A stretch of DNA of 24,681 nt from IMG/VR virus record IMGVR_UViG_3300013006_000125, positions 1 to 24,681 of that record, one strand, 5' to 3'. The translations under genes and the position numbers were made by a program. How positions within the stretch are numbered: position 1 is the first letter of the stretch; the number at the start of each line of letters is the position of its first letter. Of the stretch, positions 1,220 to 23,607 are shown one piece after another. The stretch is from a virus. Under the pieces are notes generated by a model that made no database searches, was not told the origin of the DNA, and saw only the letters and a program-made list of their open reading frames with translations.

Positions 1220-2686
1220 ATGGCAGTAAATTACGGACTTTTGGAACCTGTGAACATTGCAGGTCAGTTTATGGCTGGGCGTCAACAGGCCCAACAGAAC
1301 CAACTTGCACAACAGCAAGCCGAAATGCGCCAGCAAGAATTTGGAATGCGTAAGCAAGAATTTGATGCGCAGGCTGAAGAGCGTCGACTTAAACTTGCGG
1401 ATTACAAAACCAAACAAGCAGGGTTGGATAAATTTCTTGAGTTGAGTGTGGCGAACGGGAAAACTGGTTCGCCAAAAGAAATGGCGAGTAGTTTTTATGA
1501 ATATGCAATAACGCAAAGAGATCCTCAATTGATTATGTCTGCTCAAACAATGATGCAGGCGGCTGATGACCGAGAAAAGTACGATGCTATCCTGAAACGC
1601 CAACAGACTATCTCTGCACAGCAAGCACCCGCACCAATGGCCGGTGACTTGGGTACGGGCACTTTCGGCATAGATAATATACCTGGTATGCCTAACGCCC
1701 TTGCGTCACGGGCAGCGCCTATGGTATCTACCAATGCCCTTGCGCCTACACCAGCAGCGCCTATGGCAGCAGACCCAGTAGCAGCCATTGATTCTGAAAT
1801 TGCACTGTACGAAAATCTTAGAGACCCTCGCGCAAAAGATAAAATAACAAGGTTGCAAAAGCAACGTGATGAGTTGACAAAACGATACACGGTTGGCAAC
1901 ACGCTAATGAATCAAATGGGCGATGTGGTTGGGACTGCGCCTGCGGCAGCAAAAACCATTGGAACTGTCAATCCAAGTGACTTTACGTCAGCTTCCGTAG
2001 CAAATTTTAATCGATCTGGCAATTATGGTGATTTGGTTCTTAAACCAGTAGATCGTGCACCCCGCCCTGAGGCAGCGCCACGGACACAACAAATATCACT
2101 TGATGATGGTAGCCTCGGTATCGTAAACATGGATACCGGCGTGATCACACGCTCTACGATAGATGGCGCTCCTGCTTCTAAGAACACATTGAAGCCATTA
2201 CCTGTGCACGCCCAAAAATCGATCACAGGAGGAGCAGCTGCTTTAAGTAAATTAGACGAAACAATCAAGTCCGTTGAAGCAGCAGACGCTACTGGATTTA
2301 AAGGCTTCTTACCCGATGTACTGCTAAATCGGGCGGACCCAAAAGGAACCATAGCCCGTGCTAACATTACTGACATTGGGTCATTGGTGCTACATGACCG
2401 AAGTGGCGCTACGATCACCGCGTCAGAAACGCCCCGATTACTACCCTTTATTCCTTCGATCAAAGACGATAAACCGACGACATTAAAAAAATTGAAGCGG
2501 ATGCGGGACATCCAAGCGGAAGAATTAGAGGCATTACAAGGCACTTATACTCGCGACCAAGGTTACCGGGAGTTCAAAGTTCCAGAAAAAGCAGTGCCTG
2601 GGGTAGATGGGGCACCTCCTGCTGGTGTTGACGCAGCGCTTTGGAATGTGATGACACCAGAGGAGCGGAAATTATGGAAGAAATGA
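1220..2686 (+). CDS. internal virion / ejection protein, coiled-coil N-terminus
   Basis: A 488-residue protein starting at an ATG with GAGGT seven nt upstream. Residues about 20-75 are very rich in Gln, Glu, Lys and Arg with repeating QQ and QEF units and should form a long coiled coil. An Ala/Pro-rich linker follows, then a second charged helical stretch near residues 195-220 and a C-terminal globular part ending in VMTPEERKLWKK. No enzyme motif was seen. Position between two other ejection-type genes and the coiled-coil, Ala-rich make-up suggest a virion protein ejected with DNA. Its last 13 nt overlap the next gene, whose Shine-Dalgarno is inside this coding sequence. Confidence 0.6.
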   Translation: MAVNYGLLEPVNIAGQFMAGRQQAQQNQLAQQQAEMRQQEFGMRKQEFDAQAEERRLKLADYKTKQAGLDKFLELSVANGKTGSPKEMASSFYEYAITQRDPQLIMSAQTMMQAADDREKYDAILKRQQTISAQQAPAPMAGDLGTGTFGIDNIPGMPNALASRAAPMVSTNALAPTPAAPMAADPVAAIDSEIALYENLRDPRAKDKITRLQKQRDELTKRYTVGNTLMNQMGDVVGTAPAAAKTIGTVNPSDFTSASVANFNRSGNYGDLVLKPVDRAPRPEAAPRTQQISLDDGSLGIVNMDTGVITRSTIDGAPASKNTLKPLPVHAQKSITGGAAALSKLDETIKSVEAADATGFKGFLPDVLLNRADPKGTIARANITDIGSLVLHDRSGATITASETPRLLPFIPSIKDDKPTTLKKLKRMRDIQAEELEALQGTYTRDQGYREFKVPEKAVPGVDGAPPAGVDAALWNVMTPEERKLWKK

Positions 2687-4530
2687 CCATTGATCAGCGG
2701 CAAGCATTGGCGCTTGCCAGTGCCCGCTTACGCTTACAACAACAAGCGCCTACTTCTGCTCCTGTTGAGGACACCCGGACCCCTGCTGGCCGGGCGTCGG
2801 TAGGCGACATCGTAGCCGGACTGCCCGCGACGCGTATAATAGCGGGGCTTGCGTCTCCATTCGTTGGTGCCCTCCAAATCGGAGCTAATATTGGGGATTA
2901 TATTAATGAGCAAATGGGTAAAGACCCAATGCTCAGCAAATATCTAGCCGAGAAAATCGGTGAATATGAAAGTTCTAAAAAACGCGGGATGGCTGCTCTC
3001 GGGGATACTGTCGGGACTGATATAGCTGGGACTGTAGGAGCGGGGGTCTCCGGGGGTCTCCTCATGCGCGGGATGGTACCTGCCACTGGCTACGCTGGTA
3101 GGGTAGCCCAGGGTATCGGCGTGGGCGCGGGAGCGGGTGCGACGACACCCTCTTCGACGCCGGGAATCGAGCAGTCGATGATTCAGGCGGGCACAGGAGC
3201 AGTGATAGGCGGAGCAATTCCAGCTGCAGCCCCGGTAGTAAGTACGGCTGCAAGGGGAGCTTATCGTACATTCGTAGAACCATTGACAAATCCAGCTGCG
3301 ATCAAGGGACGAGCGTACATGGAAGCCGCTGGCGACAAAGCCCCTCAGATTATCAACGCTCTTCGGGCCAGTCAGCCCGTCGTACCGGGCAGTTTTCCAA
3401 CGGCAGGGGAGGCTGCCGCAAGCGCAGGTCGTGCCGAATTTAGCGCACTGCAAAGAAGTGCCGAAAATGTGTTACCTTCTAACTACCTCGCTAGGACGGA
3501 TGCACGAAATGCGGCACGAGCGAATCAGTTAGGTCAGGTAGCGGGGACGGAAGCAGAAATGGTAGCCGCACAGAGACTCCGCGAAACGACGGCTAAGCAA
3601 AATTATGGGCTGGCAAAGATTGAAGGCATCGATCAAGATATGGCGGCGGCAATGCAGCCGCAAATTGACAGTTTGATGGGTCGGCCTTCGATGATAGAAG
3701 CTAAGGCATTGGCAGTTAAATTAGCGCGGGAAAAAGACATTGCACTCACCGATTTCGGGTCGATTGAAGGACTAGATTGGGTCAAAAAAGGACTAGATGA
3801 ACAAATATCTGCTGCTGCCAAAGTCGGGTCCGCTGCCGGGAAAGAAAAATTAGGCGCGTTGATGCAGACTAAAGCGGATTTGTTAGCAACGATCAAGGAA
3901 ATCGCACCCGCTTACGACGTCGCTCGCGCAACATTCGCGACACAGAGCAAGCCCATCAACCAGATGGAAGTCGGACAATATCTAAAAGGTAAATTGACTT
4001 CCGCTGTTGATGAAACGGCGGGACAGAGAGCAGCATCCTTCGCGGGTGCCGTGCGAGACGCGCCTGGAACATTAAAACGTTCACTTACCGGCGCTCCTAG
4101 GTACGAAAAATTGTCAGATGTTCTTACACCTGACCAAATAGCGAAGGTCGAATCGGTTCGTCAAGATTTCGCAAATATAGCACGGCAAGAATTAATGGCC
4201 CAGAAAGGTGCTCAAGTCGGACCTAATGCTATGGAAATAGCGACTCGTTCAATATCCAGCGCTACGGGAGGGAATAAAATTCCAAATCCCCTCAGTAGAG
4301 TAGTTACCATGGCGAACGCTGTTATCGGGCGACTTGAAGGCAAGATCGACCGAAAACTTGCTATCGAGATCGCTGCTGAAATGCTAGACCCTAAAGTAGT
4401 CGCTGCTGCCCTAGAAAGAGAAACTGCGAAAGTCGCACGGAAAGCAGCGACTGCGGCTACAACCAATAAACTTCGTTTGCCCGGCATGGCTACCGGGGTT
4501 AATGCCCTAACAGATGTGACGTTTGAATAA
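2674..4530 (+). CDS. large alanine-rich ejection / internal virion protein
   Basis: A 618-residue protein. The start MEEMTIDQRQ is chosen because AGGAG lies 8 nt before it; a longer frame from 2641 has no such site. Residues about 110-190 are Gly/Ala-rich and hydrophobic (segments such as GTVGAGVSGGLLMRG and GIGVGAGAGATTP), able to insert into or line a membrane channel. The rest is long alpha-helical, Ala/Lys/Glu-rich sequence. This matches the third ejection protein of P22-like phages or the internal core proteins of other podoviruses in size and composition, but no sequence motif proves it. The TAA stop shares its last A with the ATG of the next gene. Codon choice looks more like the replication module than its neighbours (visual impression). 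Confidence 0.55.
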   Translation: MEEMTIDQRQALALASARLRLQQQAPTSAPVEDTRTPAGRASVGDIVAGLPATRIIAGLASPFVGALQIGANIGDYINEQMGKDPMLSKYLAEKIGEYESSKKRGMAALGDTVGTDIAGTVGAGVSGGLLMRGMVPATGYAGRVAQGIGVGAGAGATTPSSTPGIEQSMIQAGTGAVIGGAIPAAAPVVSTAARGAYRTFVEPLTNPAAIKGRAYMEAAGDKAPQIINALRASQPVVPGSFPTAGEAAASAGRAEFSALQRSAENVLPSNYLARTDARNAARANQLGQVAGTEAEMVAAQRLRETTAKQNYGLAKIEGIDQDMAAAMQPQIDSLMGRPSMIEAKALAVKLAREKDIALTDFGSIEGLDWVKKGLDEQISAAAKVGSAAGKEKLGALMQTKADLLATIKEIAPAYDVARATFATQSKPINQMEVGQYLKGKLTSAVDETAGQRAASFAGAVRDAPGTLKRSLTGAPRYEKLSDVLTPDQIAKVESVRQDFANIARQELMAQKGAQVGPNAMEIATRSISSATGGNKIPNPLSRVVTMANAVIGRLEGKIDRKLAIEIAAEMLDPKVVAAALERETAKVARKAATAATTNKLRLPGMATGVNALTDVTFE

Positions 4531-5395: not shown

Positions 5396-5840
5396 ACACT
5401 TCACGCTTGAAGAACTGACTCACACCGACCACCGGACGCTGGACAACTCACCCAAGCAAGAAGAGATTAACAACCTACAGCGACTGGCGCAATTTCTTGA
5501 ACAGGTCAAGACTGCTCTGGGAGGCAAGCCTGTGATGATTAATTCTGCCTTCCGGTCTAAAGCGGTCAATGACGCAGTGGGCAGTTCTGACCGGTCACAA
5601 CACCGGCTGGGCTGCGCTGCCGACATTCGTGTTCCCGGAATGACCCCCGATCAGGTGGTGCGGGCCGTTATCGCTGCAAGTTTGCCCTATGACCAGATCA
5701 TCAGGGAATTCGATGCCTGGACGCATATAAGCATCCCCAACGTAGATGGCTCACCTCCGCGTCGACAGGCTCTTATCATTGACAAGACCGGCACTCGCGT
5801 ATTCATTCCTGTTCCTCCACGATCGGCTTCGGAAACTTAG
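5379..5840 (+). CDS. endolysin, peptidase M15A (D-Ala-D-Ala carboxypeptidase-like)
   Basis: A 153-residue zinc peptidase. The GTG at 5379 is preferred because GGAAG lies 5 nt before it and the product then begins (M)TQLSKHFTLEEL, the usual M15 opening; a TTG at 5367 gives four extra residues without a Shine-Dalgarno. Motifs: SAFRSKAVNDAVG, then SQHRLGCAADIRVPG with the zinc ligands His and Asp, and WTHISIP with the third ligand. The enzyme would cut peptide cross-links of peptidoglycan after the holin opens the membrane. No signal peptide was seen. The gene starts inside the preceding frameshifted gene and its last 38 nt overlap the 3' end of the convergent primase-helicase gene. Confidence 0.88.
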   Translation: MTQLSKHFTLEELTHTDHRTLDNSPKQEEINNLQRLAQFLEQVKTALGGKPVMINSAFRSKAVNDAVGSSDRSQHRLGCAADIRVPGMTPDQVVRAVIAASLPYDQIIREFDAWTHISIPNVDGSPPRRQALIIDKTGTRVFIPVPPRSASET

Positions 5841-8370
5841 ACGCGTTACGGGCGGCACTGATTGATGACCATAGGTGTGGCACTGTCTCCTGTGTCAGAT
5901 CGTACGCATAAGTAGAACCATGCCATTTACCTGACGGACGGGTCTTTTTGAACCCAAGTCCTCGAAGCACCTTCTGAACTCGCAACACATCATTCTGGCT
6001 TTGCCTCGCAGTATCGATCTGCAGCACGATCCCAAGTATCAAATGAAGTGGGCCTGAGCGAACGTTAAATCCAGATGCAGGTTGGCCGAGTTCGTAGCGG
6101 GGGACGACATAGAATATTTCGTTAGCGTAGCTGTCCGGGTCGGTAAGAGCATCCCGAATTCTCTGGAACCATGGCTCCACATTTTCAATGCTGATCTGCC
6201 GATCCCCTTGCTCTTCAGTTACTAACTCTTGCGGAACTTTATACCAATCTTCGCCAGATTCGTAAGCGTGGACCGCTTCTGCCCACATCTGTTCCCGTAC
6301 TTCTTTCAGATTCTGTGTCCGGACTGGCCCACACTCACCCACGTGGGTCGGCCAGAAGCGACGGGCGCCCGTCAAATCGGAGATATACGCTTGTCCCACC
6401 TCATTCGTAGTACCAGCAAAAACACAAGTGCGGGGGTAAGCCTTCGGATCGCGTTCATAAGAGAGGCGGACGTCATCGACGGTGGTGGTCAAAATAGCCT
6501 TGAGCGCTTCCATGTCAGCGCGACGGACGGTTGCAAGTTCCGACATTTCCACGATCATCTTACCTGCGATCACCGCGACCATATCTTTATGAGACGTTCC
6601 CCCACCGGTCATACCGCCCGAATACTCGGTGTAGAATTGTCCACCGAGTATTCGAAGTGCTTGTGATTTCCCAATGCCTTGAGTGCCTTCAAAAATCAGC
6701 ATGTGGTCGGCTTGGCATCCCGGTTCCATTGCGCGGGCCACGGCGCTAATTAACCATTTACGCCCAATTGCCCTCGTGTATTCAGTGTTTTTAGTGCCCA
6801 TATAATCTGGAAGCCATGTATCAATGCGGGTAGTACCGTCCCAGACTAATTGTTTCAGACTGATACGCAGAGGGTTGACTCGGTATTCACTAGCCAGATA
6901 CTTGATCACTTGACTGGTGTGCATTTGTTTAACCCATGACTCCCCAGCAGAATGGAACCGGACCATCATGTTGATTTCTTCTTCTTCACTACACTTCGGG
7001 CAATCAATGTCCCCGATTTTACCGACGCGAATCCGGTGATCATAATCCGCGACCCAGAACATAGGCACAATACCTTCATCCTGCATTAAACGAGCGCGGT
7101 TGATAACGCCCACGATGTTTCCTCTCTCGTTATTATCCCCGATTGTCTCCCGCTGAAACCGCTTACGCTCTGATTTAATCAGGTCTTCCAACAGCAGTAT
7201 TCGGGGACGGGCGCATTCTTTACGAAGCTTCTTCATGATCTGAACTAGCTGCTTCCCGGTAGCGCAAGCCGACTGAACTAATTCATTATCCATCTCGACA
7301 GACGAACCATCGCACCAGTCCCTCAGCCGATCATAAATCGTTTCGGGACTTTTATACGTCGGGTCGATTTTTTCGCGAAATTCCTTCCATCGGAATGCGG
7401 AGCAAGAGTCGTGAAGACACCGATACACTGGCCGGTTGCTGACCAACCCGACCATTGGGTCGGAGTGGGTCTCATTAAATGGACATTTCGATATAATCCA
7501 CTTCTGGCCCTCATTACCAAACATAGGGCGTGGGCCACTCATGATCGTCTGCCCCCGGTCAGTCAGCCATTTCACCATGTCGGAAATATACTCACCGGTC
7601 ATGTCCCGGAACTCATCCGATTTCGCATCTCTTAATGGCCGGGCCACGTTTTCGATTTGGTCACGGGTCAGCAGTTCTAACTTTTTAGGTACCTGAGTCA
7701 ACATGGCGACCCGGTGCGGGCGGTCAACTGTATGGGACCCTTTAGCGCTTACCGTACCATAGACCTTCCAGACTCGACTTGAGTTAAAGACGGTGACGTC
7801 TACTTTAACCGCATCATCTGAAAAAATAGAGGACAACATTTTGAGGGCGTATTCAAAATCTATCCGGGTCGGGTCGTCATTCGGCTCGTCAACCCGGTAC
7901 ATTACATGACACCCATTACCACTATCAGCGCGTATTGGTTCCGGCCACCCGATTGAGGTCAACCATTCAACCACATCATCCGCCTTGCGAAAGGCAGTTT
8001 CATATTCTGACTTAGAAGACGAGATCCCAGCGGGTCGAACTGCATCGAAATCAAGTAGGAACCAGCGGCGGCGCAAAATGTCAACGTCCGATGACGTCAT
8101 GAACGAGCCATAAGTTAGCGCATTCTCGCTACGAGCCATCAACGCCGGTTGAATCGGATTCACGGTCATGTAAATCGACTGGTGTTTCCCATTCTCTTTG
8201 GCAATCATGGCAGCAGCGACGCCGGTATCATTAAAATATCCGCTGATTGTGCCCGCTTTTGTTTTAGGGATTCTAACCTCGAAAACGTCTCCCGGAGCAT
8301 GCAGTAGATCGAGCGTTGCCTTAATGATAATAGCTGGCTTCGTCTCTGCGTATTCTTTAAATTGTGTCAC
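5803..8370 (-). CDS. PrimPol (AEP primase) - zinc motif - VirE/D5-like helicase fusion
   Basis: An 855-residue replication protein starting at GTG with AAGGA six nt upstream, 1 nt after the nuclease gene stop. N-terminal archaeo-eukaryotic primase motifs: LLDFD (Asp107 and Asp109), SGNGCH (His155) and VKVDVT (Asp191). A zinc-ribbon-like cluster follows (CPFNETH at 296-302, CLHDSC at 318-323). The C-terminal half is a VirE-type SF3/AAA helicase: Walker A GTQGIGKS at 562-569, Walker B IVEMSEL near 606-612, sensor-like FAGTTNE near 651-657, and an arginine-finger region TGARRFWP. It would prime and unwind the phage replication fork. A second cysteine pair (CPKC near 457-460) is unusual. In the Z context it must prime on 2-aminoadenine DNA. 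Its 3' end overlaps the convergent endolysin gene. Confidence 0.88.
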   Translation of the reverse strand: MTQFKEYAETKPAIIIKATLDLLHAPGDVFEVRIPKTKAGTISGYFNDTGVAAAMIAKENGKHQSIYMTVNPIQPALMARSENALTYGSFMTSSDVDILRRRWFLLDFDAVRPAGISSSKSEYETAFRKADDVVEWLTSIGWPEPIRADSGNGCHVMYRVDEPNDDPTRIDFEYALKMLSSIFSDDAVKVDVTVFNSSRVWKVYGTVSAKGSHTVDRPHRVAMLTQVPKKLELLTRDQIENVARPLRDAKSDEFRDMTGEYISDMVKWLTDRGQTIMSGPRPMFGNEGQKWIISKCPFNETHSDPMVGLVSNRPVYRCLHDSCSAFRWKEFREKIDPTYKSPETIYDRLRDWCDGSSVEMDNELVQSACATGKQLVQIMKKLRKECARPRILLLEDLIKSERKRFQRETIGDNNERGNIVGVINRARLMQDEGIVPMFWVADYDHRIRVGKIGDIDCPKCSEEEEINMMVRFHSAGESWVKQMHTSQVIKYLASEYRVNPLRISLKQLVWDGTTRIDTWLPDYMGTKNTEYTRAIGRKWLISAVARAMEPGCQADHMLIFEGTQGIGKSQALRILGGQFYTEYSGGMTGGGTSHKDMVAVIAGKMIVEMSELATVRRADMEALKAILTTTVDDVRLSYERDPKAYPRTCVFAGTTNEVGQAYISDLTGARRFWPTHVGECGPVRTQNLKEVREQMWAEAVHAYESGEDWYKVPQELVTEEQGDRQISIENVEPWFQRIRDALTDPDSYANEIFYVVPRYELGQPASGFNVRSGPLHLILGIVLQIDTARQSQNDVLRVQKVLRGLGFKKTRPSGKWHGSTYAYDLTQETVPHLWSSISAARNASKFPKPIVEEQE

Positions 8371-8371
8371 G

Positions 8372-8809
8372 TTAAATCCTTGTCAATGTTTTGAGCGCAG
8401 GGGTTAACACTTTTGCGATGTCTGCTTGATCGCATGTGGCCGTACATATTAGACGCATGTCGTGAGCGTTGTGGATCTCGGTTAGTGCACTGTGGTGTTT
8501 ACCATCCACCAGATATATCGCACGTTTTATTCGAATTAAAAAATGAATCGGCATTCTAGGAAGCCAACGCCGCATGTATTGGTGTTGAGAAGCCTCAACT
8601 CTGACCCGACATATCTCGGATAATTCAACATCCATCGCTTTCAATTCTAGCCACCCGACTCGGTGTGCGGCTTCGTCAATCATAACGTAATGTAGATCGG
8701 GAACACCGGGACTGATGTGCCTATCTTCATGCCAAGTGATCTCCCATTCGCCGGTCATTGCCGATTTCAAGAAGTGACGGAATTTGAGTTCAGCTGCGCT
8801 CATACGCAT
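8372..8809 (-). CDS. VRR-NUC / PD-(D/E)XK nuclease
   Basis: A 145-residue protein with the nuclease core PGVPDLHYVM (Asp of the PD motif, about residue 37) and GWLELKA (ExK, about residues 52-58), followed by VEASQHQYMRR, in which the Gln-x-x-x-x-R element is typical of VRR-NUC enzymes. The family acts as structure-specific nucleases, often replacing a Holliday-junction resolvase in phages. It would resolve branched replication products. Two starts are possible, ATG 8809 and ATG 8803, both inside the end of datZ with no clear Shine-Dalgarno, so translation is probably coupled. It lies between the Z-nucleotide genes and the primase-helicase. Confidence 0.82.
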   Translation of the reverse strand: MRMSAAELKFRHFLKSAMTGEWEITWHEDRHISPGVPDLHYVMIDEAAHRVGWLELKAMDVELSEICRVRVEASQHQYMRRWLPRMPIHFLIRIKRAIYLVDGKHHSALTEIHNAHDMRLICTATCDQADIAKVLTPALKTLTRI

Positions 8810-9344
8810 AAAACATGATATAGTCTTTCACGTGTGTGATCACATGCTCCGGCCAATGGTGCTCAGCTACTGCGCGGTCAAATATTTTAAGTATCTGGTC
8901 TTCCAGCCCCTCTTGGGCGTGAGCCGCAGTCATATCAATGCCGTGTAACCGAATAAACCGGATTCCGTCTGCGATATCGCACATCTTGACTAATATCTTA
9001 GTGCTTGGTCGGCATTCAAAAATAAAATTCTTTGGGGTAACTAGCTTTTCCAGGTCATCAACCCCGTCGATCATTTTCTTCGTATGGGACGGAATGTCGC
9101 CAGTGAACGCTTCCGGGAGGTCGTGTACCAGAGCCACAGCGCCGACATCCGTGTAAATATCAAAAATTCCAGCGGGGGCGGTGTGTGCGATAAGCATAGC
9201 CAACATCGCCACATTCGCAGAATGTTCGGCCAAATTCTGGGTCCGGGTTGTGTCGATCATATGCCAACGTTTCACCGCCTGAATCCGCATCACTGATTCC
9301 AGCGAGTGCCGCTCTGGACCATACGCCAAGAATTTATGCAACAT
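8790..9344 (-). CDS. datZ: DatZ-like HD-domain dATP triphosphohydrolase
   Basis: A 184-residue HD phosphohydrolase of the YfbR type. Visible motifs: RWHMIDTTRTQNLAEHS (Trp27, metal His41), LVHDLPEAFTGDIP (His74-Asp75, Glu78, Asp83) and MCDIADG (Asp123), which supply the H...HD...D metal set. The YfbR family cleaves deoxynucleotides. The phage branch DatZ converts dATP to deoxyadenosine plus triphosphate and so removes adenine from the pool. The assignment to DatZ rather than a general 5'-deoxynucleotidase rests on its place directly after purZ and mazZ. The start overlaps the end of mazZ by 11 nt and the end overlaps the nuclease start by 20 nt. An internal start at Met19 is possible. Confidence 0.88.
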   Translation of the reverse strand: MLHKFLAYGPERHSLESVMRIQAVKRWHMIDTTRTQNLAEHSANVAMLAMLIAHTAPAGIFDIYTDVGAVALVHDLPEAFTGDIPSHTKKMIDGVDDLEKLVTPKNFIFECRPSTKILVKMCDIADGIRFIRLHGIDMTAAHAQEGLEDQILKIFDRAVAEHHWPEHVITHVKDYIMFYAYERS

Positions 9345-9684
9345 GACTATTCACCCCATTTTTATCAGTTGCCCATGTCCTTTTCCGATTGATATCGAGC
9401 TTTCGAAGAACTGCTGTGGTGACGTCCACTTTTTTGCGCTTCGAGTAGTCCAGTAGCAGAATAAACATATCCGCAATTTCGTTGGCGTCCCCATCCGACT
9501 CAATCATTTCAGCGATCTCGCCGTACATTTTAAGATACATACTGGCGTCATTTCGGTTGGGAAAAGTATCTTCTGCCCAGTTAAAGACTCCCTCGGTCAG
9601 ATACCCTATGGGGGTGTTATGGTCATTAGCCCAATCAGGTGGGGATTCGTCAGTGATCATGAATTTAAACTCCAGCTGCTTCAT
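9334..9684 (-). CDS. mazZ: MazZ-like MazG-family (d)GTP pyrophosphohydrolase
   Basis: The start is set at ATG 9684 because GGGAG lies 7 nt upstream; this gives 116 residues. A longer open frame to 9759 only repeats the purZ 3' end out of frame. The all-alpha MazG core is clear: YGEIAEMIE (Glu56, Glu59, Glu62) and ANEIADMFILLLD (Glu69, Asp72), the ExxE...ExxD magnesium motif, then a basic C-terminal LRKLDINRKRTW typical of MazG. In Z phages MazZ turns dGTP/GTP into the monophosphate and gives PurZ its dGMP. It overlaps purZ by 20 nt and datZ by 11 nt. Substrate choice is inferred from context. Confidence 0.85.
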   Translation of the reverse strand: MKQLEFKFMITDESPPDWANDHNTPIGYLTEGVFNWAEDTFPNRNDASMYLKMYGEIAEMIESDGDANEIADMFILLLDYSKRKKVDVTTAVLRKLDINRKRTWATDKNGVNSHVA

Positions 9685-10741
9685 TATATTCTCCCATAGT
9701 CGCGACATCTTCATCGTCCGGACCAAATCCAAGCCATGCGACATCGGGCGGATTTCCATTAAGTTCAGAGTGGGCTTCTATCTTTTCGATAATGTCATGT
9801 AATTGATCGGTCCCATCAGTGTAATTGGCGAAATTCAGGAAAACTCGGGTGTCCCAATATCCACCACAATGAAAAGCTGCCTCCTCCGCCTGTTTTTGAC
9901 TGAAAGTAAAGATGCGACGCTTAAGCTTAGTAACTGTTGTAAACTCTGGTTCGACCTCAAGTTGTTCGAAGCTGGTTTCTTCTTGGTCCGGGTAACAAGG
10001 CCCACTACTCCCGGTCCGATTATTGACCCGGATAGGAAAGCAACGCATAGATCCAATAACCTTCACATAGCTAGCCCATCGATAGGGTAGTGCGCAATCG
10101 GCGCTGATCTGCCAAGGTGTTACATCACGGGAGGTAGTGTACGGATATTGACCATGATACATCGAAAGGCTAAACCCCTGCGCTCCCTCGACTAAGACGC
10201 TTTCAGCCCGATTCAAAGTTCGACGGTATTGCTCAGCGGTAGCCACATACTGCCCTAACTCAGTGCCTGCCCAACGGGTTCCGGCGACGTTTGGATTGTC
10301 TGGATTACGTTTAATACGTTCAATAGCTGCAGCACCGACACCATGTACGGTAGACCCGATCTTGGCCATGCCCCATTCAACTTCCTGTTCCGTGTGGTAT
10401 TCTTCAATCACGGCGGCGTGAGGATGAATAAGAATCTGCTTGTCCTTGAGCAGGTGGCTGTATTTCTTGATTTCCCCTAGTAATGTGGGGCCGTGAATCA
10501 AAGAGCCGGGGCCAATTAGCACCTGTTTTACTGTCGAAGAAGATAGAGCGCCAGTAGGAATCTGTTGCGTCATCAAATGCATTCCACGTGATTTATCGAT
10601 GTAAGTATGCCCGGCATTAACTGCAAAGGAGCAGATCGCCGTGTCATAATCGCCACGTTTAGCCAGATATCCCGCGATCAAGCCCTTACCGGTAGACCCA
10701 TATTGGAAGTCCATGACCATATCAATTTTATGTGCCATCAT
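9665..10741 (-). CDS. purZ: PurZ, dGMP:aspartate ligase (succino-2-amino-dAMP synthetase)
   Basis: A 358-residue relative of adenylosuccinate synthetase (bacterial PurA is about 430). The P-loop reads QYGSTGKG where PurA has WGDEGKGK: the catalytic Asp is Ser16, the mark of PurZ. Other family blocks are present: AVNAGHTY (catalytic-type His45), QQIPTGAL, VLIGPGSLIHGP, STVHGVGAA, VEGAQGFSLSMYHGQYPYTT, and the C-terminal TKLKRRIFTFS where the aspartate loop would be. PurZ joins aspartate to dGMP; host PurB then releases fumarate to give dZMP. The start codon overlaps the polymerase stop (ATGA); Met2 is an alternative start. The gene is tightly coupled to polymerase upstream and mazZ downstream. 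Confidence 0.93.
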   Translation of the reverse strand: MMAHKIDMVMDFQYGSTGKGLIAGYLAKRGDYDTAICSFAVNAGHTYIDKSRGMHLMTQQIPTGALSSSTVKQVLIGPGSLIHGPTLLGEIKKYSHLLKDKQILIHPHAAVIEEYHTEQEVEWGMAKIGSTVHGVGAAAIERIKRNPDNPNVAGTRWAGTELGQYVATAEQYRRTLNRAESVLVEGAQGFSLSMYHGQYPYTTSRDVTPWQISADCALPYRWASYVKVIGSMRCFPIRVNNRTGSSGPCYPDQEETSFEQLEVEPEFTTVTKLKRRIFTFSQKQAEEAAFHCGGYWDTRVFLNFANYTDGTDQLHDIIEKIEAHSELNGNPPDVAWLGFGPDDEDVATMGEYNEAAGV

Positions 10742-12558
10742 TTACTCGCTTCATACCAATTGTGACCAAAATTTCCAGAAGCGGTAATTGGTACCCGCAT
10801 CTGGACCACGGAACCCTCGGAATTGAAGTTCGTGTAGCGTTTGACAATCAGATCTTTCATCTCATCGTCTTGTTTCATGCTGACCCCGATCTCGTCGTGA
10901 CATGACATCAGGAGTCGCGCCGGGAGTCGCTGGGAGCGTATCAAAGTGTCGACCTCCACCAGACCGATTTTATGCAAATCGGCGGCGTAAGCTTGATAAA
11001 GTAGTCCCGCTGCCTTGTGTGCGCCTGTAGGGAATCTCAAGCGGCGACCAATGGCGGTCCGAACATGTCCGGTTTCTTTAGCCACAGCTTCTGCCCTTTT
11101 CATAAACTCTTTCACGCCGGGGAGCTTTTTGTGATACAGATTAAACACGTCGGTGGCTGACTGTCCAGGTACGTATTGCATCTTGCCACGACTCTCTTTG
11201 ATGTCATAAGGCATCCCCATCATGAATGCAAGCTTCCCAGCCCCCGCACCAAATGCAAGTCCTAGGTTGATCTGCTTCGTGTTCGGAGCGCCCGCATAAG
11301 TCGCATTTCGTGGGATCCCCGTCATGTCGCTCACAATCTGGTGATAATCCAAAGACGGGTCCAGCGCATAAGCATCTATAACCGACTGGTCGTTGATCAG
11401 GTGGGCTGCGCATCGAAAGTCAACCTGCGAGTAATCAGCACAAAGCCATTCGTCCCCGGCGTCTGGGAGAAACATGGCTCGGAGGATAGCGGCATTAACC
11501 TTGTCGCGTTTTGTGATCTGTTGTAGCGCTGGGTCTGTAGATGATAGGCGCCCGGTAACAGTCCCCGCATCTGCGTCGTTACGTGTTTGATTGAACTGGG
11601 TATGTACGTACCCATCCCCATCAGCACTTCCGATAACGTGGCCACGGATGAAGGTGTCCCGGAGCTTGATCGTTTTACGAAGAGCCAGTATTTTCTCAGC
11701 CAAAGGGTGTTTGATCGTCCGCATGACATTCTGGTCAAGGCTCGGCCCTTTACCGCCTTTCGTCGGTCCAACGAGCGTGCCATCGAGGAGACGCCATTGG
11801 AATTTGCTGATCGGTTCCGGTTTAAAGAATTCGCGGACCTGAGGGGACGAGTTAACATTGAATTTACCTCCTGCGATTTCGTTAATTTCAGCTTGAAGAA
11901 TCTCTTCTTGGTCGTCCAATCGAGGAATAGCAGCATAGGCTGCCTCGAGGTTTACCCGAACACCAGTCCAAGACATATCAGCTAGTACGGGCATGACTTG
12001 CTGCTCAAGATGAAGCACCCGATGTAGATCCTGCTTGGCTACTTCAGACTGCTGGGCACGGTAGATTTGGAGGGCGTCGGAGGCGTCAGAGGCTCCGTAC
12101 CGGGCTACCATAGCGGCAGGGACCTCGGAGAGGCGAGAGAGTACCTCCCGACTATCTCGCCATCCCATCGCGGCGCGTATCTCCTCTAGTATCTGGGTCT
12201 TCTGGCTATCGACATTACGGTACCTGGCAATGCTAGCTAGATCGTAGGTCAGGTGGTGTTCGTCGATAAGACACTCGGCTACCATCGTACAATACCAATC
12301 GGTCAACCGGGGGTCAGCTCCAAGTACACGAGAACACTGATATTCATACTGAGCATTTTGCGCGACTACTGTCCGGCCTTGAATAGTCTCGCGTAGCCAT
12401 TCCACAACACTAGGATTATCCCGGATATCCCAATACCAAGAAGTGTCGTCAACAGCCACAGCGATGCCAAAAACCCGAAAATCGGGATCCCAATACCTAA
12501 GACCAGTGGTTTCATAGTCAAGTCCAATAATTTCATTTTTAGGTATCTCGGGGAACAT
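10738..12558 (-). CDS. dpoZ: family A DNA polymerase, DpoZ type, with 3'-5' exonuclease
   Basis: A 606-residue polymerase. Exonuclease domain: ExoI LDYETTG (Asp14, Glu16), ExoII QNAQYEYQ (Glu72 where Asp is usual), ExoIII YGASD (Tyr154, Asp158). Polymerase domain: TGRLSSTDPALQQI near 335-347, motif A ADYSQVDFR (Asp375), motif B NTKQINLGLAFG (Lys428), motif C SCHDEIG (His554, Asp555, Glu556). It lacks a 5'-3' exonuclease domain, as replicative phage polymerases do. Because it directly precedes purZ it is assigned to the DpoZ group, which prefers dZTP opposite T. The usual O-helix Arg and Phe seem to be Ala424 and Leu432. No Shine-Dalgarno precedes the ATG, and a strong terminator ends 12 nt upstream. 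Confidence 0.88.
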   Translation of the reverse strand: MFPEIPKNEIIGLDYETTGLRYWDPDFRVFGIAVAVDDTSWYWDIRDNPSVVEWLRETIQGRTVVAQNAQYEYQCSRVLGADPRLTDWYCTMVAECLIDEHHLTYDLASIARYRNVDSQKTQILEEIRAAMGWRDSREVLSRLSEVPAAMVARYGASDASDALQIYRAQQSEVAKQDLHRVLHLEQQVMPVLADMSWTGVRVNLEAAYAAIPRLDDQEEILQAEINEIAGGKFNVNSSPQVREFFKPEPISKFQWRLLDGTLVGPTKGGKGPSLDQNVMRTIKHPLAEKILALRKTIKLRDTFIRGHVIGSADGDGYVHTQFNQTRNDADAGTVTGRLSSTDPALQQITKRDKVNAAILRAMFLPDAGDEWLCADYSQVDFRCAAHLINDQSVIDAYALDPSLDYHQIVSDMTGIPRNATYAGAPNTKQINLGLAFGAGAGKLAFMMGMPYDIKESRGKMQYVPGQSATDVFNLYHKKLPGVKEFMKRAEAVAKETGHVRTAIGRRLRFPTGAHKAAGLLYQAYAADLHKIGLVEVDTLIRSQRLPARLLMSCHDEIGVSMKQDDEMKDLIVKRYTNFNSEGSVVQMRVPITASGNFGHNWYEASK

Positions 12559-12648: not shown

Positions 12649-13407
12649 TTAAATATCGCCACGATCGGCAGGCGCAGCGTCTTTTTCGGGAGCGGCACTC
12701 GCGTGATCGGCGACGACTTCACCAGATCGGAAAGCAGCGTAGACGCGCTCCGCCTCTTCATAGATCGCCTTAGGCGGAAAACCGGCGGGTTGCACGACGA
12801 AGTTCTTAAACTTCTGGCCTTTCTTGTTCTCGTCGGTAAAAGACGAAAGCTTGTAGACACGACCAAAGCGATCACCACCAGCGATCTGAATCATCGCGTT
12901 CCATTTACGGGAGACTTTGGACTTGGTTTTGGCCATGGAGATGACGATCTGCTCTTTATCGCCTTCGGGCGTAATGCGTAGACCATAATGCACCGGAGTG
13001 TCCACGATCTCCAAATACTCGGGGTTCTCACCATTCTTCACCTCCGTACTCTTACGTTCCTCTGCTTGTTCCAAAGTAGGGAATGACCCGAAAAACCCGC
13101 CACCTTGATCTTGATCTTTCCAGATAAGATACTCTAACCGGAAATAAACCGGGACGAAATAAGCGTGATCACCGATAATCTCCTGCGTCACCGAATTGAA
13201 CAGCATTCCCTCGCGGGCATCCGGGTCCAATTCTTTGATCGGCGAGAGAGCTTGGACGATTTCGAGACGCGGGAGCACCATGTCCGAGGATTTAACCTCT
13301 TCCGATCCACGTCCAGCACCTTGCTTGATATAGTCAGGGGTGGCGCTCACTGCAAACGGATCTGCTGCGATTGTCGCGACTTCTGCGGTCTTCTTACTAG
13401 TAGCCAT
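12649..13407 (-). CDS. putative phage ssDNA-binding protein
   Basis: A 252-residue protein with GGAGA about 8 nt before the ATG. It has a Lys/Ala N-terminal tail, then an SSB-like phage core with segments VLPRLEIVQALSPIKELDP, EGMLFNSVTQEII, FVPVYFRLEYLIWKD and KSKVSRKWNAMIQ. The end is Ala/Glu/Asp-rich (AAPEKDAAPADRGDI), a mildly acidic tail such as SSBs use to contact partners. Proteins of this look are often annotated as hypothetical or ssDNA-binding in phages. Position in the replication module, beside a helicase and before the polymerase, supports the role, but no diagnostic motif exists. It is the last gene before the UUCG terminator. Confidence 0.5.
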   Translation of the reverse strand: MATSKKTAEVATIAADPFAVSATPDYIKQGAGRGSEEVKSSDMVLPRLEIVQALSPIKELDPDAREGMLFNSVTQEIIGDHAYFVPVYFRLEYLIWKDQDQGGGFFGSFPTLEQAEERKSTEVKNGENPEYLEIVDTPVHYGLRITPEGDKEQIVISMAKTKSKVSRKWNAMIQIAGGDRFGRVYKLSSFTDENKKGQKFKNFVVQPAGFPPKAIYEEAERVYAAFRSGEVVADHASAAPEKDAAPADRGDI

Positions 13408-14350: not shown

Positions 14351-16096
14351 CTAGCCGGTGAGTTCCATACTTTCGAGCGGTGCGCCGTTTTTAAGGCGGT
14401 GCATGATATACTCTTCTACATTCATTTTTTCGGCGTTGGCCGCTATGATTTGCTCGTCGATCGTTTTTTCCATCACCAAGTCTAGAACCACCACGGAATT
14501 CTTCTGCCCGATTCGGTGCGCTCGATCTTCCGACTGCGCTCGATCGATATAAGCATTCGTGCCAGAATAATAGACCAATATATCATTAAAAGTGCTAACC
14601 AGGGTAAGTCCCAGTCCCGCTGTGGCTGGATTACCGATAAAGAAGCGAAGAACAGGGTCGTTACAATAGCGGTCTTCGATAGCCGATCTGGCTTCCTTCT
14701 CAGTAGCGCCATAATATTTCTCCACAGCCTGCTTTCCGTACTTCTCTTCCAGTCGATTCGCGATATATTCGATTTCATGAATAAATGTACTCCATATGAT
14801 GAATTTCGACCCAGCTAGATTATCTTCAATTGCTTCGAATAGTAAATCCATCTTCGGATTATCTGCAAGTGGTTCTAGCGTCACCTTTTTAGTTAGCGGG
14901 TCTTGTCTGGGTAACCATCCTCCTACCACCTGTCTCCAGCGAAGTACTCGTTCCAACACGTTATCCACCTTGATTAGCGGAGCGTTCGGATCGCCGGTAC
15001 TGCCTGTTTTAATAAGGCGTAACAGCGTTTTTTGCTCTGGGGTCGCCGCGCAATACCGGGTTTTCGGCATCTTGGGCGGTAGATCTAACACGTCTTTCCC
15101 GACCTCGACGGTATACGGCTCTATCAGCTTCATCAATTCTTCGATATTTTGTACCCCCACTATCTGCTTACCCTCGTATCCGCCCATCGTAAGATACCGA
15201 GTCTTGAAGCTCCAATAATCCCCACTGCCTATGATATTAGGGTCGAGAAATTCGTACTGGCTCCAAAGATCTTGAATACCCAGCGCGATAGGTGTCCCAT
15301 TAAGTATGAGCCGATATTTAGCGGCGTCGCGGAATTCGATAGTTCGCTCTGTTCGCTTAGCTGCCGGGTTCTTTATTCGACTACTCTCGTCTATGATGAC
15401 CATGACGTTACGACGGGGGAAGAAGCCACAAACGCTATCGTAAAGCGCCGAGGAGACGCCAAGCCCTTCTACCGATACTGCGAGTATTTGCAGTATATTT
15501 TTAGGATGCTCACTGTAGAATTCTTGTAAGGACTTCGATTTTGTCTCGTGAACCCGAAAATCATACTCTACCGTCGCGTATTTCACTAGTTCTTTACGCC
15601 ATGTCGCTCGAAGTGTTGAAGGACAGACGATTACTACTGAATCGATCAACCCGGCTTTGAACCGAGCACACGCCAGATGAATTGCGGCAAACGTCTTTCC
15701 AGTGCCCATTTTGGCGAACCAAGCAATCGCCGGGAGATTCCACGCTTTATCCAGCATCTTACATTGATGGTCCATTGGAGTATAAGCAGTTTTAGATTTA
15801 GTGAAGTCATACAGGTGGTAGGGAAATGGTTGGTACTTTGGTCCGGACATCAAGCTCTCGTAGTCACGAATCGCGACGACCGATTCCTCCGTGAATTCGT
15901 ATAAGAACAGATGCTTAGTCTCATGTAAGTGGTAAATATTCGCACGGACCAATGGCATCCGCCATGTCTTGCTTTTTGGGTCGAATCTGCGACTCGGAAA
16001 ATTCCGGGCTGCGTCCGCGAGGAAAAACGGGTACGCCATTTTCAATCGGCGGCTTTTCGCATCATAATCTACTTTAACGACATTAGAGAGGCCCAT
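14351..16096 (-). CDS. SNF2-family DEAD/DEAH helicase with HARP-like N-terminus
   Basis: A 581-residue ATPase with GGAGG six nt before the ATG. The N-terminal 60 residues end in RRFDPKSKTWRMPLV, like the small HARP domain of SMARCAL1-type annealing helicases. Then come the Q-like MDHQ (about 108-111), Walker A MGTGKT (130-135), motif Ia CPSTLRATW, motif II DESSRIKN (236-243), motif III LNGTPI, and in the second RecA domain IIWSTF and motif VI QSEDRAHRIGQ near residue 530. All SNF2 blocks are present, so it should be active. Likely roles are fork regression, annealing or recombination, the job of UvsW-like enzymes in phages. Its start overlaps the zinc-finger gene by 14 nt. Confidence 0.88.
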   Translation of the reverse strand: MGLSNVVKVDYDAKSRRLKMAYPFFLADAARNFPSRRFDPKSKTWRMPLVRANIYHLHETKHLFLYEFTEESVVAIRDYESLMSGPKYQPFPYHLYDFTKSKTAYTPMDHQCKMLDKAWNLPAIAWFAKMGTGKTFAAIHLACARFKAGLIDSVVIVCPSTLRATWRKELVKYATVEYDFRVHETKSKSLQEFYSEHPKNILQILAVSVEGLGVSSALYDSVCGFFPRRNVMVIIDESSRIKNPAAKRTERTIEFRDAAKYRLILNGTPIALGIQDLWSQYEFLDPNIIGSGDYWSFKTRYLTMGGYEGKQIVGVQNIEELMKLIEPYTVEVGKDVLDLPPKMPKTRYCAATPEQKTLLRLIKTGSTGDPNAPLIKVDNVLERVLRWRQVVGGWLPRQDPLTKKVTLEPLADNPKMDLLFEAIEDNLAGSKFIIWSTFIHEIEYIANRLEEKYGKQAVEKYYGATEKEARSAIEDRYCNDPVLRFFIGNPATAGLGLTLVSTFNDILVYYSGTNAYIDRAQSEDRAHRIGQKNSVVVLDLVMEKTIDEQIIAANAEKMNVEEYIMHRLKNGAPLESMELTG

Positions 16097-17472: not shown

Positions 17473-18372
17473 TTACGCTTCGGCTGTCGCTGGGGCGGCT
17501 GCAGCTTTCAGCACTGCTTTCGCTTCACGGGCTGCTTTCGCTAGAGCGACGCGTTCAGCTTTCGCGGCTGCTTTTTCCACGATCGAGACGCTGGAATCTA
17601 GGTCGTTCACCTCGACGTACTCACGGATCGTCTCAATGGTGAGATGACCTTTGCGCAGTGCTCCACGCATCTTGTTACGCAGGTTCATCGACTGCTGTCC
17701 GACGTTGAGGTGAGTGTACGGGTTCACCTCTAGCTCTAGCACGGCTTTCGCAGTCTGAATGACGCCATTCGGGGTCACGCCGTCGAGCACCTGAGCGAGT
17801 TCATCGTTCGAGCGAAGCTGACCGGTGACGCCTTTCACGTAGACTCCCTGCTTCACGCGATCAGCCAGAGCCAGCATGGACCCGACGTATTTACGAGTGC
17901 CGTCCGGGTTCAGCGCTTCCAGACGGGCTGCGCGTTCAGCCTTGGCTGCTTCCCGTTCTTCCTTCGTGGCAGTCACCTTGGCCAGCTTCGCGGCTTCTTT
18001 TTCGGCCTTCAATGCGGCTGCGGCTTCCAGCTTCGCGGCTTTCGCTGCGATCTTCGCTGCGGCTTTTTCAGCCGCTATTTCTTGTCGGGTCGGTTCCTGC
18101 ACGGGTGAGGGATTCAGGGTTTCAGTGTAGCCCTCTTCGTTCGTGAACGATTCAGCTGCGGGCTTGGATTTGCGGGTCATAGTGACTTCCTTAGGAATAG
18201 CTCCATATGGAGCGGGGTTGAAAACGGAGAATCCCGAGTGTATACCAGCTGGGGGGCTATTGTCAAGATCGTCGGACACAATGTTCACGGTGCCTTCAAT
18301 GGTGTCTGGGTCCGGTATCGGTCGCCCAGTCCTGCTGTTGATCATCCGGACGCGTTTACGTTCATTAGCCAT
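17473..18372 (-). CDS. Ala/Lys-rich early protein with 'HLNVGQQSMNLRNK' domain; two in-frame starts
   Basis: The frame gives 299 residues from ATG 18372 (AAGGAGG five nt upstream) or 235 residues from ATG 18180 (AAGGAAG five nt upstream, with its own promoter at 18239-18266). The short form begins MTRKSKPAAE. The middle (about 70-150 in the long form's numbering plus 50) is an Ala/Lys/Glu coiled coil with repeats like EAAKAERAARLEALN. A globular domain near the end has YVGSMLALADRVKQGVYV and NPYTHLNVGQQSMNLRNKMR, shared with the 190-residue gene at 19993-20565. A basic Ala/Lys tail closes it. The basic, nucleoid-protein-like composition suggests DNA binding (inference). The 64 extra residues of the long form are unlike the rest. 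Confidence 0.65.
   Translation of the reverse strand: MANERKRVRMINSRTGRPIPDPDTIEGTVNIVSDDLDNSPPAGIHSGFSVFNPAPYGAIPKEVTMTRKSKPAAESFTNEEGYTETLNPSPVQEPTRQEIAAEKAAAKIAAKAAKLEAAAALKAEKEAAKLAKVTATKEEREAAKAERAARLEALNPDGTRKYVGSMLALADRVKQGVYVKGVTGQLRSNDELAQVLDGVTPNGVIQTAKAVLELEVNPYTHLNVGQQSMNLRNKMRGALRKGHLTIETIREYVEVNDLDSSVSIVEKAAAKAERVALAKAAREAKAVLKAAAAPATAEA
18200..18213 (-). repeat. 14-bp perfect palindrome in the leader of the Ala/Lys-rich gene
   Basis: GCTCCATATGGAGC lies about 20-33 nt after the predicted start of transcription from the 18239-18266 promoter and just before the AAGGAAG ribosome site. It could be an operator or an RNA hairpin next to the ribosome site. Confidence 0.55.
18239..18266 (-). 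promoter_or_regulatory. sigma-70 promoter inside the long reading frame
   Basis: On the minus strand a perfect TTGACA is followed after 16 nt by TGG TATACA, an extended -10. Transcripts would begin near 18232 and carry only the MTRKSKP start, giving the short protein. Confidence 0.7.
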
Positions 18373-18416
18373 GGGATCCTCCTTAAGTATGGCGATTGCA
18401 GATTGGAGTAGGAGAT

Positions 18417-18432
18417 CCTCCCGTGTGGGAGG
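18417..18432 (-). other. intercistronic hairpin
   Basis: Perfect CCTCCC/GGGAGG stem with a 4-nt loop, directly after the 81-residue gene stop. No T tract follows. Similar hairpins stand at 17441 and 19953 in the same operon. Confidence 0.45.
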
Positions 18433-18442
18433 GTCGTTCAGT

Positions 18443-18688
18443 TTAAGCCGTCGCACGGAGCACATGGTCTTTAAGGGTCACGCCTCCTGCTTTGATCATT
18501 ACACCGATCATAGTCTGGTAGGTGTCCAAGTCCATATGGCCCATGAGCATCGCGTAGAGGTGGCCAGAGGGGATGCCTTGGGGTCCGGACGACGCGATGA
18601 CTTCTTGGATGGCGTCGAGTACGGGCTTTACTCGCTCGAATCTCTCAGATTCTAGTAGTGCGCGGGTCTGGGGGATTGAATGGGTCAT
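18443..18688 (-). CDS. small helical phage protein, winged-helix-like
   Basis: An 81-residue protein beginning MTHSIPQTRALLESERF. The core RVKPVLDAIQEVIASSG, GIPSGHLYAMLMGHMDLDTYQTM... and KAGGVTLKDHVLRA has the spacing of a helix-turn-helix or winged helix: a helix, 'GIPSGHLYAMLM' turn, a helix, then a short strand 'VTLKDHVLRA'. Related phage proteins of unknown role are common. The start has AAGGAG five nt upstream, and its ATG overlaps the previous gene's stop. DNA binding is an inference. Confidence 0.55.
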   Translation of the reverse strand: MTHSIPQTRALLESERFERVKPVLDAIQEVIASSGPQGIPSGHLYAMLMGHMDLDTYQTMIGVMIKAGGVTLKDHVLRATA

Positions 18689-21781: not shown

Positions 21782-22252
21782 ATGAGTGATGTTACAGACA
21801 TTGAACCCCTGCATTCCGTTGATATGACGGAGGACGGTCAATTCGAGTATCCAATACTTACTCAAGCAGAGGACACATTCGCTCTTGCAGTCATCGAATG
21901 CGGTGGGAATGTAGCGTCAGCGTACAAAATGACGTTCGGTGCCGATTCTCCGTTCCCGGTAGCTCGGGGCAAGGAATTGCTAAGTAAGCCTCAAATCGCT
22001 TTAAGAATCAAGGAAATCACGGATAAAATCCAAGACGCGTCCCTAATATCAATGGGCGCTCATCTATATGAATTAGCGGACATCCGGGACCTTGCGAAGG
22101 TATCAGGACAGTTAAAAGTCGCGTTGAACGCAGAACGAGCGCGAGGTGAAGTAGTCGGGTTGTACGACAATTTCGCAAGCGGCGGAAAGAATAACGCAGG
22201 ACCCGCGAATATCCAGATCAATATGGTTAGCAAGTTCGACGTAAATATATAA
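21782..22252 (+). CDS. terminase small subunit
   Basis: A 156-residue protein from MSDVTDIEPLHSV. A longer frame from a GTG at 21731 overlaps the promoter and is rejected. The core LTQAEDTFALAVIECGGNVASAYKMTFG followed by PVARGKELLSKPQIALRIKE is the typical helix-turn-helix of small terminases ('GN-S-AY---F----A---G--LL--P---RI'). A helix with EL-DIRDLAK and a glycine/asparagine-rich tail follow. It would recognise the packaging site and load the large subunit. It is coupled to terL by TAATG, and the leaderless start is unusual. The pac site may be in this gene or in the repeat region upstream. Confidence 0.85.
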   Translation: MSDVTDIEPLHSVDMTEDGQFEYPILTQAEDTFALAVIECGGNVASAYKMTFGADSPFPVARGKELLSKPQIALRIKEITDKIQDASLISMGAHLYELADIRDLAKVSGQLKVALNAERARGEVVGLYDNFASGGKNNAGPANIQINMVSKFDVNI

Positions 22253-23607
22253 TGCACGAATTTAAACTTACCGCTAAGCAAGAAGAAGCCCAAGAAGTGC
22301 TGGCAGGAAGTGCTACGCACGGTATGTTATTCGGCGGGTCGCGGTCTGGTAAGACGTTTTTGCTGGTTCGAAATGTCGTGCTACGCGCAATGAAGGCTCC
22401 ACGGTCGCGTCACTGCATTTTGCGGTTTCGTTTTAACCACATAAAAGCGTCAATTATTCTAGACACGTTTCCGAAAGTCATGGAAGTATGCTTTCCAGGG
22501 GTTACGTATAATCTCTCGAAAACTGACTGGTTCGCAGCGTTACCGAATGGCAGTGAAGTGTGGTTCGGCGGACTAGATGATAAAGAAAGAACAGAAAAAA
22601 TCCTGGGTCAAGAATATTCAACGATATATTTCAATGAGTGTTCACAAATCCCGCAAGGTTCTCATGACATAGCGATGACCCGGTTGGCGCAACTTGCAGA
22701 AACTACGTCGGGCCATTTCTTGACTCCACGGGCGTTCTACGACATGAACCCCACGAACAAGATGCACTGGGCATACAAGATATTTATTCAGAAGATCGAA
22801 CCTGAGACGAAAAAGCCTCTAAGTCACCCAGAGAATTTTGTGAACTGCAAAATGAACCCGGAAGACAATGCGCAGAATTTATCTTCAACGTATCTAGAAA
22901 CCTTAAAAGCGCTCAGTCCGCGTCTCCGAAAGCGGTTTTTGCTCGGTGAATTTGCCGATGTCACAAATAATGCGCTCTTTAATGACGAGAATTTCGAACT
23001 CTGGCGAGTCGTTGACGGTGTGGTTCCCGACATGGTTCGAATCGTTATTTCTGTCGACCCGTCAGGAGCTGGAGATACTAACAATGCAGATAATGACGCT
23101 ATCGGTATCATCGTAGCTGGCATTGGAACCGATGGCAATTGTTATATCATGGAAGACATCACCGTAAAAGCAGGCCCGGCAACATGGGGTAAAGTAGCGA
23201 CGGATGCTTATGACCGTCATGAAGCTGACGCAGTGGTTGGTGAAGTGAATTACGGTGGCGCGATGGTGAAACATGTGATTCAAACAGCTCGTCCACGGAC
23301 CAATTTCCGAAAAGTCACAGCCACTCGCGGTAAAGTAGTAAGAGCTGAACCTATTTCGGCACTTTACGAACAGGGTAAAGTGCGTCATGTCGGGTATATG
23401 CGAGATTTGGAAGATGAACTTTCAGCGTTTACCACGAACGGATATATAGGCGAAAATAGTCCGAATCGCGCTGATGCACTCATTTGGGCCGTTTCTGAGC
23501 TTTTCCCTGGTATTATTAAACCCCGCAAAGAAAAGCAAATCGCCGAAGAAGTGCGTCCACGTATGTATTCTGGTCGGGGACTTACATCTTCATGGTTAGG
23601 AGCATAG
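22252..23607 (+). CDS. terminase large subunit
   Basis: A 451-residue packaging motor and nuclease. ATPase: Walker A GGSRSGKT (28-35), Walker B with catalytic Glu, TIYFNE (Glu129), and coupling-like FYDMNPTNKMHW. Nuclease (RNase H fold): ISVDPSG (Asp268), NDAIG (Asp281), EVNYGG, and C-terminal NRADALIW (Asp408). The length is usual for the phage terminase family of podo- and siphoviruses. It cuts and pumps DNA into the prohead through the portal. The start overlaps the terS stop by one base without a Shine-Dalgarno, so translation depends on terS. Confidence 0.95.
   Translation: MHEFKLTAKQEEAQEVLAGSATHGMLFGGSRSGKTFLLVRNVVLRAMKAPRSRHCILRFRFNHIKASIILDTFPKVMEVCFPGVTYNLSKTDWFAALPNGSEVWFGGLDDKERTEKILGQEYSTIYFNECSQIPQGSHDIAMTRLAQLAETTSGHFLTPRAFYDMNPTNKMHWAYKIFIQKIEPETKKPLSHPENFVNCKMNPEDNAQNLSSTYLETLKALSPRLRKRFLLGEFADVTNNALFNDENFELWRVVDGVVPDMVRIVISVDPSGAGDTNNADNDAIGIIVAGIGTDGNCYIMEDITVKAGPATWGKVATDAYDRHEADAVVGEVNYGGAMVKHVIQTARPRTNFRKVTATRGKVVRAEPISALYEQGKVRHVGYMRDLEDELSAFTTNGYIGENSPNRADALIWAVSELFPGIIKPRKEKQIAEEVRPRMYSGRGLTSSWLGA

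Follow-up and report, generated by a model that had tools for sequence, protein, structure and literature searches.

Genes for probable 2-aminoadenine DNA in an uncultured phage and a frequent Glu at the Exo II site of its DpoZ branch

We propose that an operon in a linear IMG/VR virus record of 24,681 bases (the window) very probably makes the phage genome ZTGC-DNA, in which 2-aminoadenine (Z) takes the place of adenine. The record belongs to an uncultured phage and is probably a fragment of a genome. The operon itself is mostly ordinary, since an identical gene set and order are usual for this phage lineage. The presence of Glu at the Exo II site in an uncultured branch of the polymerase DpoZ is mildly new, and the remainder confirms published biology. 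With the window, the Z-genome phages gain an uncultured clade.

The operon is encoded on the minus strand and is formed by DpoZ, a family A DNA polymerase with a 3'-5' exonuclease domain (10738..12558, 606 aa), PurZ, a PurA-like 2-amino-deoxyadenylosuccinate synthetase (9665..10741, 358 aa), MazZ-1, a MazG-fold (d)GTP pyrophosphohydrolase (9334..9684, 116 aa) and DatZ, an HD-domain dATP triphosphohydrolase (8790..9344, 184 aa). The ORF coordinates give overlaps of 4 nt (DpoZ/PurZ), 20 nt (PurZ/MazZ) and 11 nt (MazZ/DatZ), as an earlier note on this DNA had listed them. The identities proposed there for the four proteins are supported by structure matches, by residues and, for PurZ and DpoZ, by trees. 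In the search against characterised proteins that the note had suggested, the top solved structures are Z-phage enzymes for all four proteins, namely DpoZ of phiVC8 (7pbk, E 1.7e-102), PurZ of phiVC8 (6fko, E 1e-74), MazZ of S-2L (7ody, E 9.4e-12) and DatZ of S-2L (6zpa, E 8.6e-12), values which exclude chance matches. Pfam and PHROG agree with these structure-based calls (phrog_1211 at 1.4e-71 for PurZ; PF04447 at 2.9e-6 for MazZ, scored on a longer ORF; phrog_7076, dATP triphosphohydrolase, at 4.3e-23 for DatZ). Depending on the gene, the proteins share only about 23-47% identity with their homologues in isolates, and when the entire window was compared with phage records by megablast, there was no match.

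Nearly all of the published catalytic and specificity residues that we tested, taken from PMC8342488, PMC8065100 and PMC8599892, are kept, and the four genes look functional. The P-loop of PurZ, GSTGKG, carries Ser16 where cellular PurA has an Asp, as had been noticed before, and this Ser is invariant among the aligned PurZ sequences. The specificity residues, including Ser16 and Val239, are kept, and 28 of 30 tested residues of the dGMP pocket and ATP site are identical to those of S-2L, with the remaining exchanges (C204 to T and Q308 to N) being common to other PurZ. In MazZ, E56, E59, D72 and I75 match S-2L E35, E38, D53 and I56, and D79, K95, N99 and W104 match D60, K76, N80 and W85; the metal ligands and the guanine readers (S-2L I56 and D60) are therefore kept in a gene located between purZ and datZ. 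The position of S-2L MazZ E50 is also a Glu in the window, as read by eye from the alignment. The start at 9684 was preferred for MazZ because a GGGAG lies just upstream as a Shine-Dalgarno sequence and because it is conserved in close relatives; the 141-aa ORF from the mechanical start at 9759 was rejected. DatZ keeps the metal ligands H41, H74, D75 and D123 (S-2L H34, H66, D67 and D119), the phosphate contacts R26, K89 and K120 (R19, K81 and K116) and W27 (W20). Two positions differ from S-2L: I22 is conservatively replaced by M29, a Met being also present in Bm1, and the base-contacting P79 is replaced non-conservatively by H87, an exchange shared with Bm1 and most of the clade.

By analogy with characterised homologues (PMC8342488, PMC8065100, PMC8599892 and PMC12884076), MazZ would convert dGTP to dGMP, which PurZ would condense with aspartate, using ATP or dATP, to N6-succino-2-amino-dAMP. 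The host PurB, guanylate kinase and NDP kinase would complete the synthesis of dZTP. DatZ would remove dATP, DpoZ would prefer dZTP to dATP opposite T, and a downstream primase-helicase would prime and unwind. Z in place of A, already proposed in the earlier note, is thus the most likely outcome given genes, residues and clades, although it is not readable from the sequence.

The polymerase of the window shows the signature of the phiVC8-like DpoZ-2, which is defined by L455, F459 (the Tyr gate changed to Phe), G548 and insertion 2 (PMC8599892). The three residues correspond to L432, F436 and G518, and the insertion, of seven residues, is found on helix O. Placement was analysed with quick trees, supported by SH-aLRT only. 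In the DpoZ tree, computed without phiJL001, a published non-Z relative of DpoZ, the window falls within a clade of 42 sequences including 8 isolates (SH-aLRT 99), and the non-Z PolA and DpoZ-1 sequences fall outside it, as does the polymerase of OspP_OH. In the PurZ tree the clade of the window also holds S-2L and SH-Ab 15497 (SH-aLRT 99), with PurZ0 (support 96) and PurA apart. A position of PurZ and polymerase outside the Z-phage clades had been named in advance as evidence against a Z genome; both are located inside the clades of phiVC8 and SH-Ab 15497.

Within DpoZ, the window and 21 further IMG/VR loci form an uncultured branch in which the catalytic Exo II Asp (phiVC8 D85) is a Glu in 17 of 22 members, including E72 of the window, and an Asp in the other five, whereas all 64 other DpoZ sequences covered carry the Asp. 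A second, DpoZ-seeded scan gave the same pattern. On a careful tree the site changed five times, always between Asp and Glu, the only residues seen, which suggests that the carboxylate is kept and that the site is not dead. Exo I (D14 and E16, phiVC8 D26 and E28) and Exo III (Y154 and D158) are kept in the window. On helix E2, the position of phiVC8 R/K161 is not conserved across the clade; in the window itself it is ambiguous, being Arg in one alignment and Ser in another, and a loss of R161 there was considered and dropped on account of this disagreement. In the literature searched we found no paper on a D424E exchange in Klenow. Tentatively, the uncultured branch, which the tree places as the sister group of the remaining DpoZ-2, could have an altered proofreading site at Exo II and helix E2, with the dZTP preference persisting alongside a changed exonuclease activity. 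If true, nature would have provided in this branch a means to ask whether proofreading is needed for Z selection. The Exo II residue also allows natural enzymes to be used for testing the model in which Z is selected by backtracking into the exonuclease site.

The same residue might be read as a sign of partial replacement of A, in which a DpoZ with weakened proofreading tolerates dATP, the genome is a mixture of A and Z, and DatZ acts as the main excluder, as proposed for S-2L. We consider this improbable. It would accommodate the Glu in 17 of the 22 clade members against the Asp in the other 64, and also the variability at the position of R161, a residue implicated in exonuclease activity. 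However, the Asp/Glu restriction over the five changes maintains the carboxylate, Exo I, Exo III and the metal ligands of DatZ are all intact, and the exonuclease-dead mutant of phiVC8 keeps its Z preference (PMC8599892), so the Glu at Exo II need not affect Z selection.

Support for a ZTGC genome was also obtained from the polymerase side, by two scans seeded with DpoZ alignments and independent of PurZ. PurZ is present in 61 of the 65 loci with the full signature (L455, F459, G548 and insertion 2, phiVC8 numbering), the remaining four ending at a contig edge downstream; where the signature is incomplete or absent, PurZ occurs in 12 loci and is missing from 62. A search that does not begin with PurZ thus also finds the complete set of signature residues associated with the dZTP genes. 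This association, the conserved specificity residues of PurZ (Ser16, Val239 and others) and the Z content of characterised phages with the four-gene set (PMC12884076) make it very unlikely that the genes only adjust nucleotide pools, by dATP depletion or purine salvage, while the DNA stays canonical, even though the S-2L PurZ is capable of dATPase activity (PMC8342488) and the Z content of this phage is inferred from its genes. That ordinary cellular-type PurA, PolA, MazG and YfbR genes came to be adjacent by chance, each of the four belonging to a superfamily with ordinary members, has a negligible probability, since each of the four has a Z version as its best match and their order is conserved, and the trees, with PurZ and DpoZ in Z clades, and the synteny refute it.

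The survey also uncovered exceptions. A DpoZ-like polymerase at L171:3431-5287 keeps L455, F459 and insertion 2, with Ser in place of G548. There is no PurZ in the 5.9 kb downstream, MazZ and DatZ were not found nearby either, and a P-loop protein lies between the polymerase and the nuclease, at the expected place of the Z-cluster. At this locus the Z pathway may have been lost secondarily, and a polymerase resembling DpoZ is by itself no proof of a Z genome. At L195:5956-9855 a Z-cluster lies beside a family A polymerase with an ordinary Tyr gate, and nine loci (L205, L207, L211, L258, L259, L263, L268, L269 and L276) have PurZ and a polymerase lacking the DpoZ signature, with other forms of motif B, as in OspP_OH. 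Judged by these motifs, L195 and the nine loci hold further polymerase types in Z phages.

The earlier note regarded the compact full set as noteworthy and stated that many Z phages lack one of the four genes. Our counts do not support this for the PurZ lineage. The polymerase, PurZ, a MazZ-type protein and DatZ occur in the order of the window in all nine PurZ isolates fetched besides S-2L (phiVC8, SH-Ab 15497, ZP6, OspP_OH, BUCT555, PSA28, Bm1, Kokobel2 and PMBT28), and all four genes, in the same order, are found in 66 of the 76 IMG/VR loci with enough flank, a sample that excludes the actinophage PurZ0 branch because loci were picked by PurZ similarity. Rarity of the compact set in this lineage is thus rejected. 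The ten other loci comprise six without DpoZ (S-2L-like ones and L044), two without a recognisable MazZ and two without a detected DatZ. The published work agrees: datZ-mazZ-purZ had been defined as a conserved Z-cluster (PMC8342488), phages with a phiVC8-like DpoZ all have it (PMC8599892), and the PurZ lineage, as distinct from PurZ0, normally has all four genes in this order (PMC8342488, PMC8599892 and PMC12884076). The statement on missing genes applies only to S-2L-like phages, which have no DpoZ, and to actinophages with PurZ0, in which DutZ and DmtZ take the place of DatZ and MazZ (PMC12884076). An S-2L-like group of IMG/VR loci (L031-L039 and L041-L043) has PurZ and, as far as the sequence covers them, MazZ and DatZ. 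DpoZ was not detected in this group; several members carry an S-2L-like helicase on the opposite strand, and S-2L is thus not a lone case. A PurZ-like gene with 31% identity also occurs at L114:7941-9008, on a contig of 994 kb from a bacterial MAG; up to 8 kb away from it, neither DpoZ nor DatZ nor MazZ was detected.

In some relatives a small helical protein of phrog_2831, of unknown function, replaces MazZ-1 or MazZ-2 between PurZ and DatZ (L026:3378-3710, L074:9032-9361, L106:8995-9480, L100:8990-9835, L130:3896-4264 and L134:1498-2214). It carries the motif ERxFQDxKWG...EAELxEAK...RNSxRxE, its predicted fold gives weak MazG-like matches (iMazG and AF_0060, no E below 0.5), and profile comparison with MazZ gave no sequence link. 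From the predicted fold it is a candidate for a third MazZ type.

Among known systems, the Acinetobacter phage SH-Ab 15497 and the Vibrio phage phiVC8 share with the window the four functions in identical order and an upstream SNF2-type helicase and gp34-like protein, with identities of 45-47% for PurZ and 37% for DpoZ. In phiVC8, DpoZ and PurZ are separated by a MazZ-2 and a primase, and in SH-Ab 15497 MazZ is fused to other domains, whereas the window has a stand-alone MazZ-1, a downstream primase-helicase and the Exo II Glu. The cyanophage S-2L also has a stand-alone MazZ-1 between PurZ and DatZ and a PrimPol-helicase with a related helicase part; unlike the window it lacks DpoZ, and its DNA is replicated by a PrimPol that is not selective (PMC8065100). 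In the Burkholderia phage Bm1 (L009) the four genes directly adjoin, as in the window, and DatZ has the same His at P79 and Met at I22, but its DpoZ and PurZ, at 37-39% identity, are only distantly related to those of the window and belong to other clades. The Arthrobacter phage Wayne likewise makes dZTP via a PurZ-type enzyme, but has PurZ0, DpoZ-1 and DutZ/DmtZ replacing DatZ and MazZ (PMC12884076).

The overlapping run of genes extends beyond 8790-12558. A VRR-NUC-like nuclease of 145 aa (8372..8809, minus strand; phrog_2165, 6.9e-13), with the motif GVPDL...GWLELK read by eye, overlaps DatZ by 20 nt. Its PHROG label is DNA helicase, the annotation given to the small ORF that comes next in the run of Bm1. 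It is followed by an 855-aa primase with AEP-type motifs (LLDFD and GNGCH, read by eye) fused to a VapE-type helicase (5803..8370, minus strand; PF05272, 3e-68). The helicase part aligns with the S-2L PrimPol-helicase (82.7 bits), and a search for homology between the primase part and the S-2L PrimPol gave an alignment in the helicase part only. Upstream of the operon, on the same strand, lie a Pam3 gp34-like protein (12649..13407; PF23977, 2.4e-61) and an SNF2-type helicase (14351..16096; PF00176, 4.9e-22), both of which are conserved on this side of DpoZ in most Z loci whose flank is long enough; in all, the SNF2 helicase is accompanied there by three proteins with Pam3-phage Pfam names. Three large ORFs (1220-2686, 2641-4530 and 17473-18465), beside the tail and ejection genes and in the early region, have no or weak family matches. 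Tail fibre, ejection, holin and endolysin genes are found at one end of the window and a terminase pair, on the plus strand, at the other. The terminase large subunit (22252-23607) is closest to those of the Synechococcus phages Ssp-JY42 and Yong-M4-211, at 50% identity, the next being at about 30%, which hints at a cyanobacterial host.
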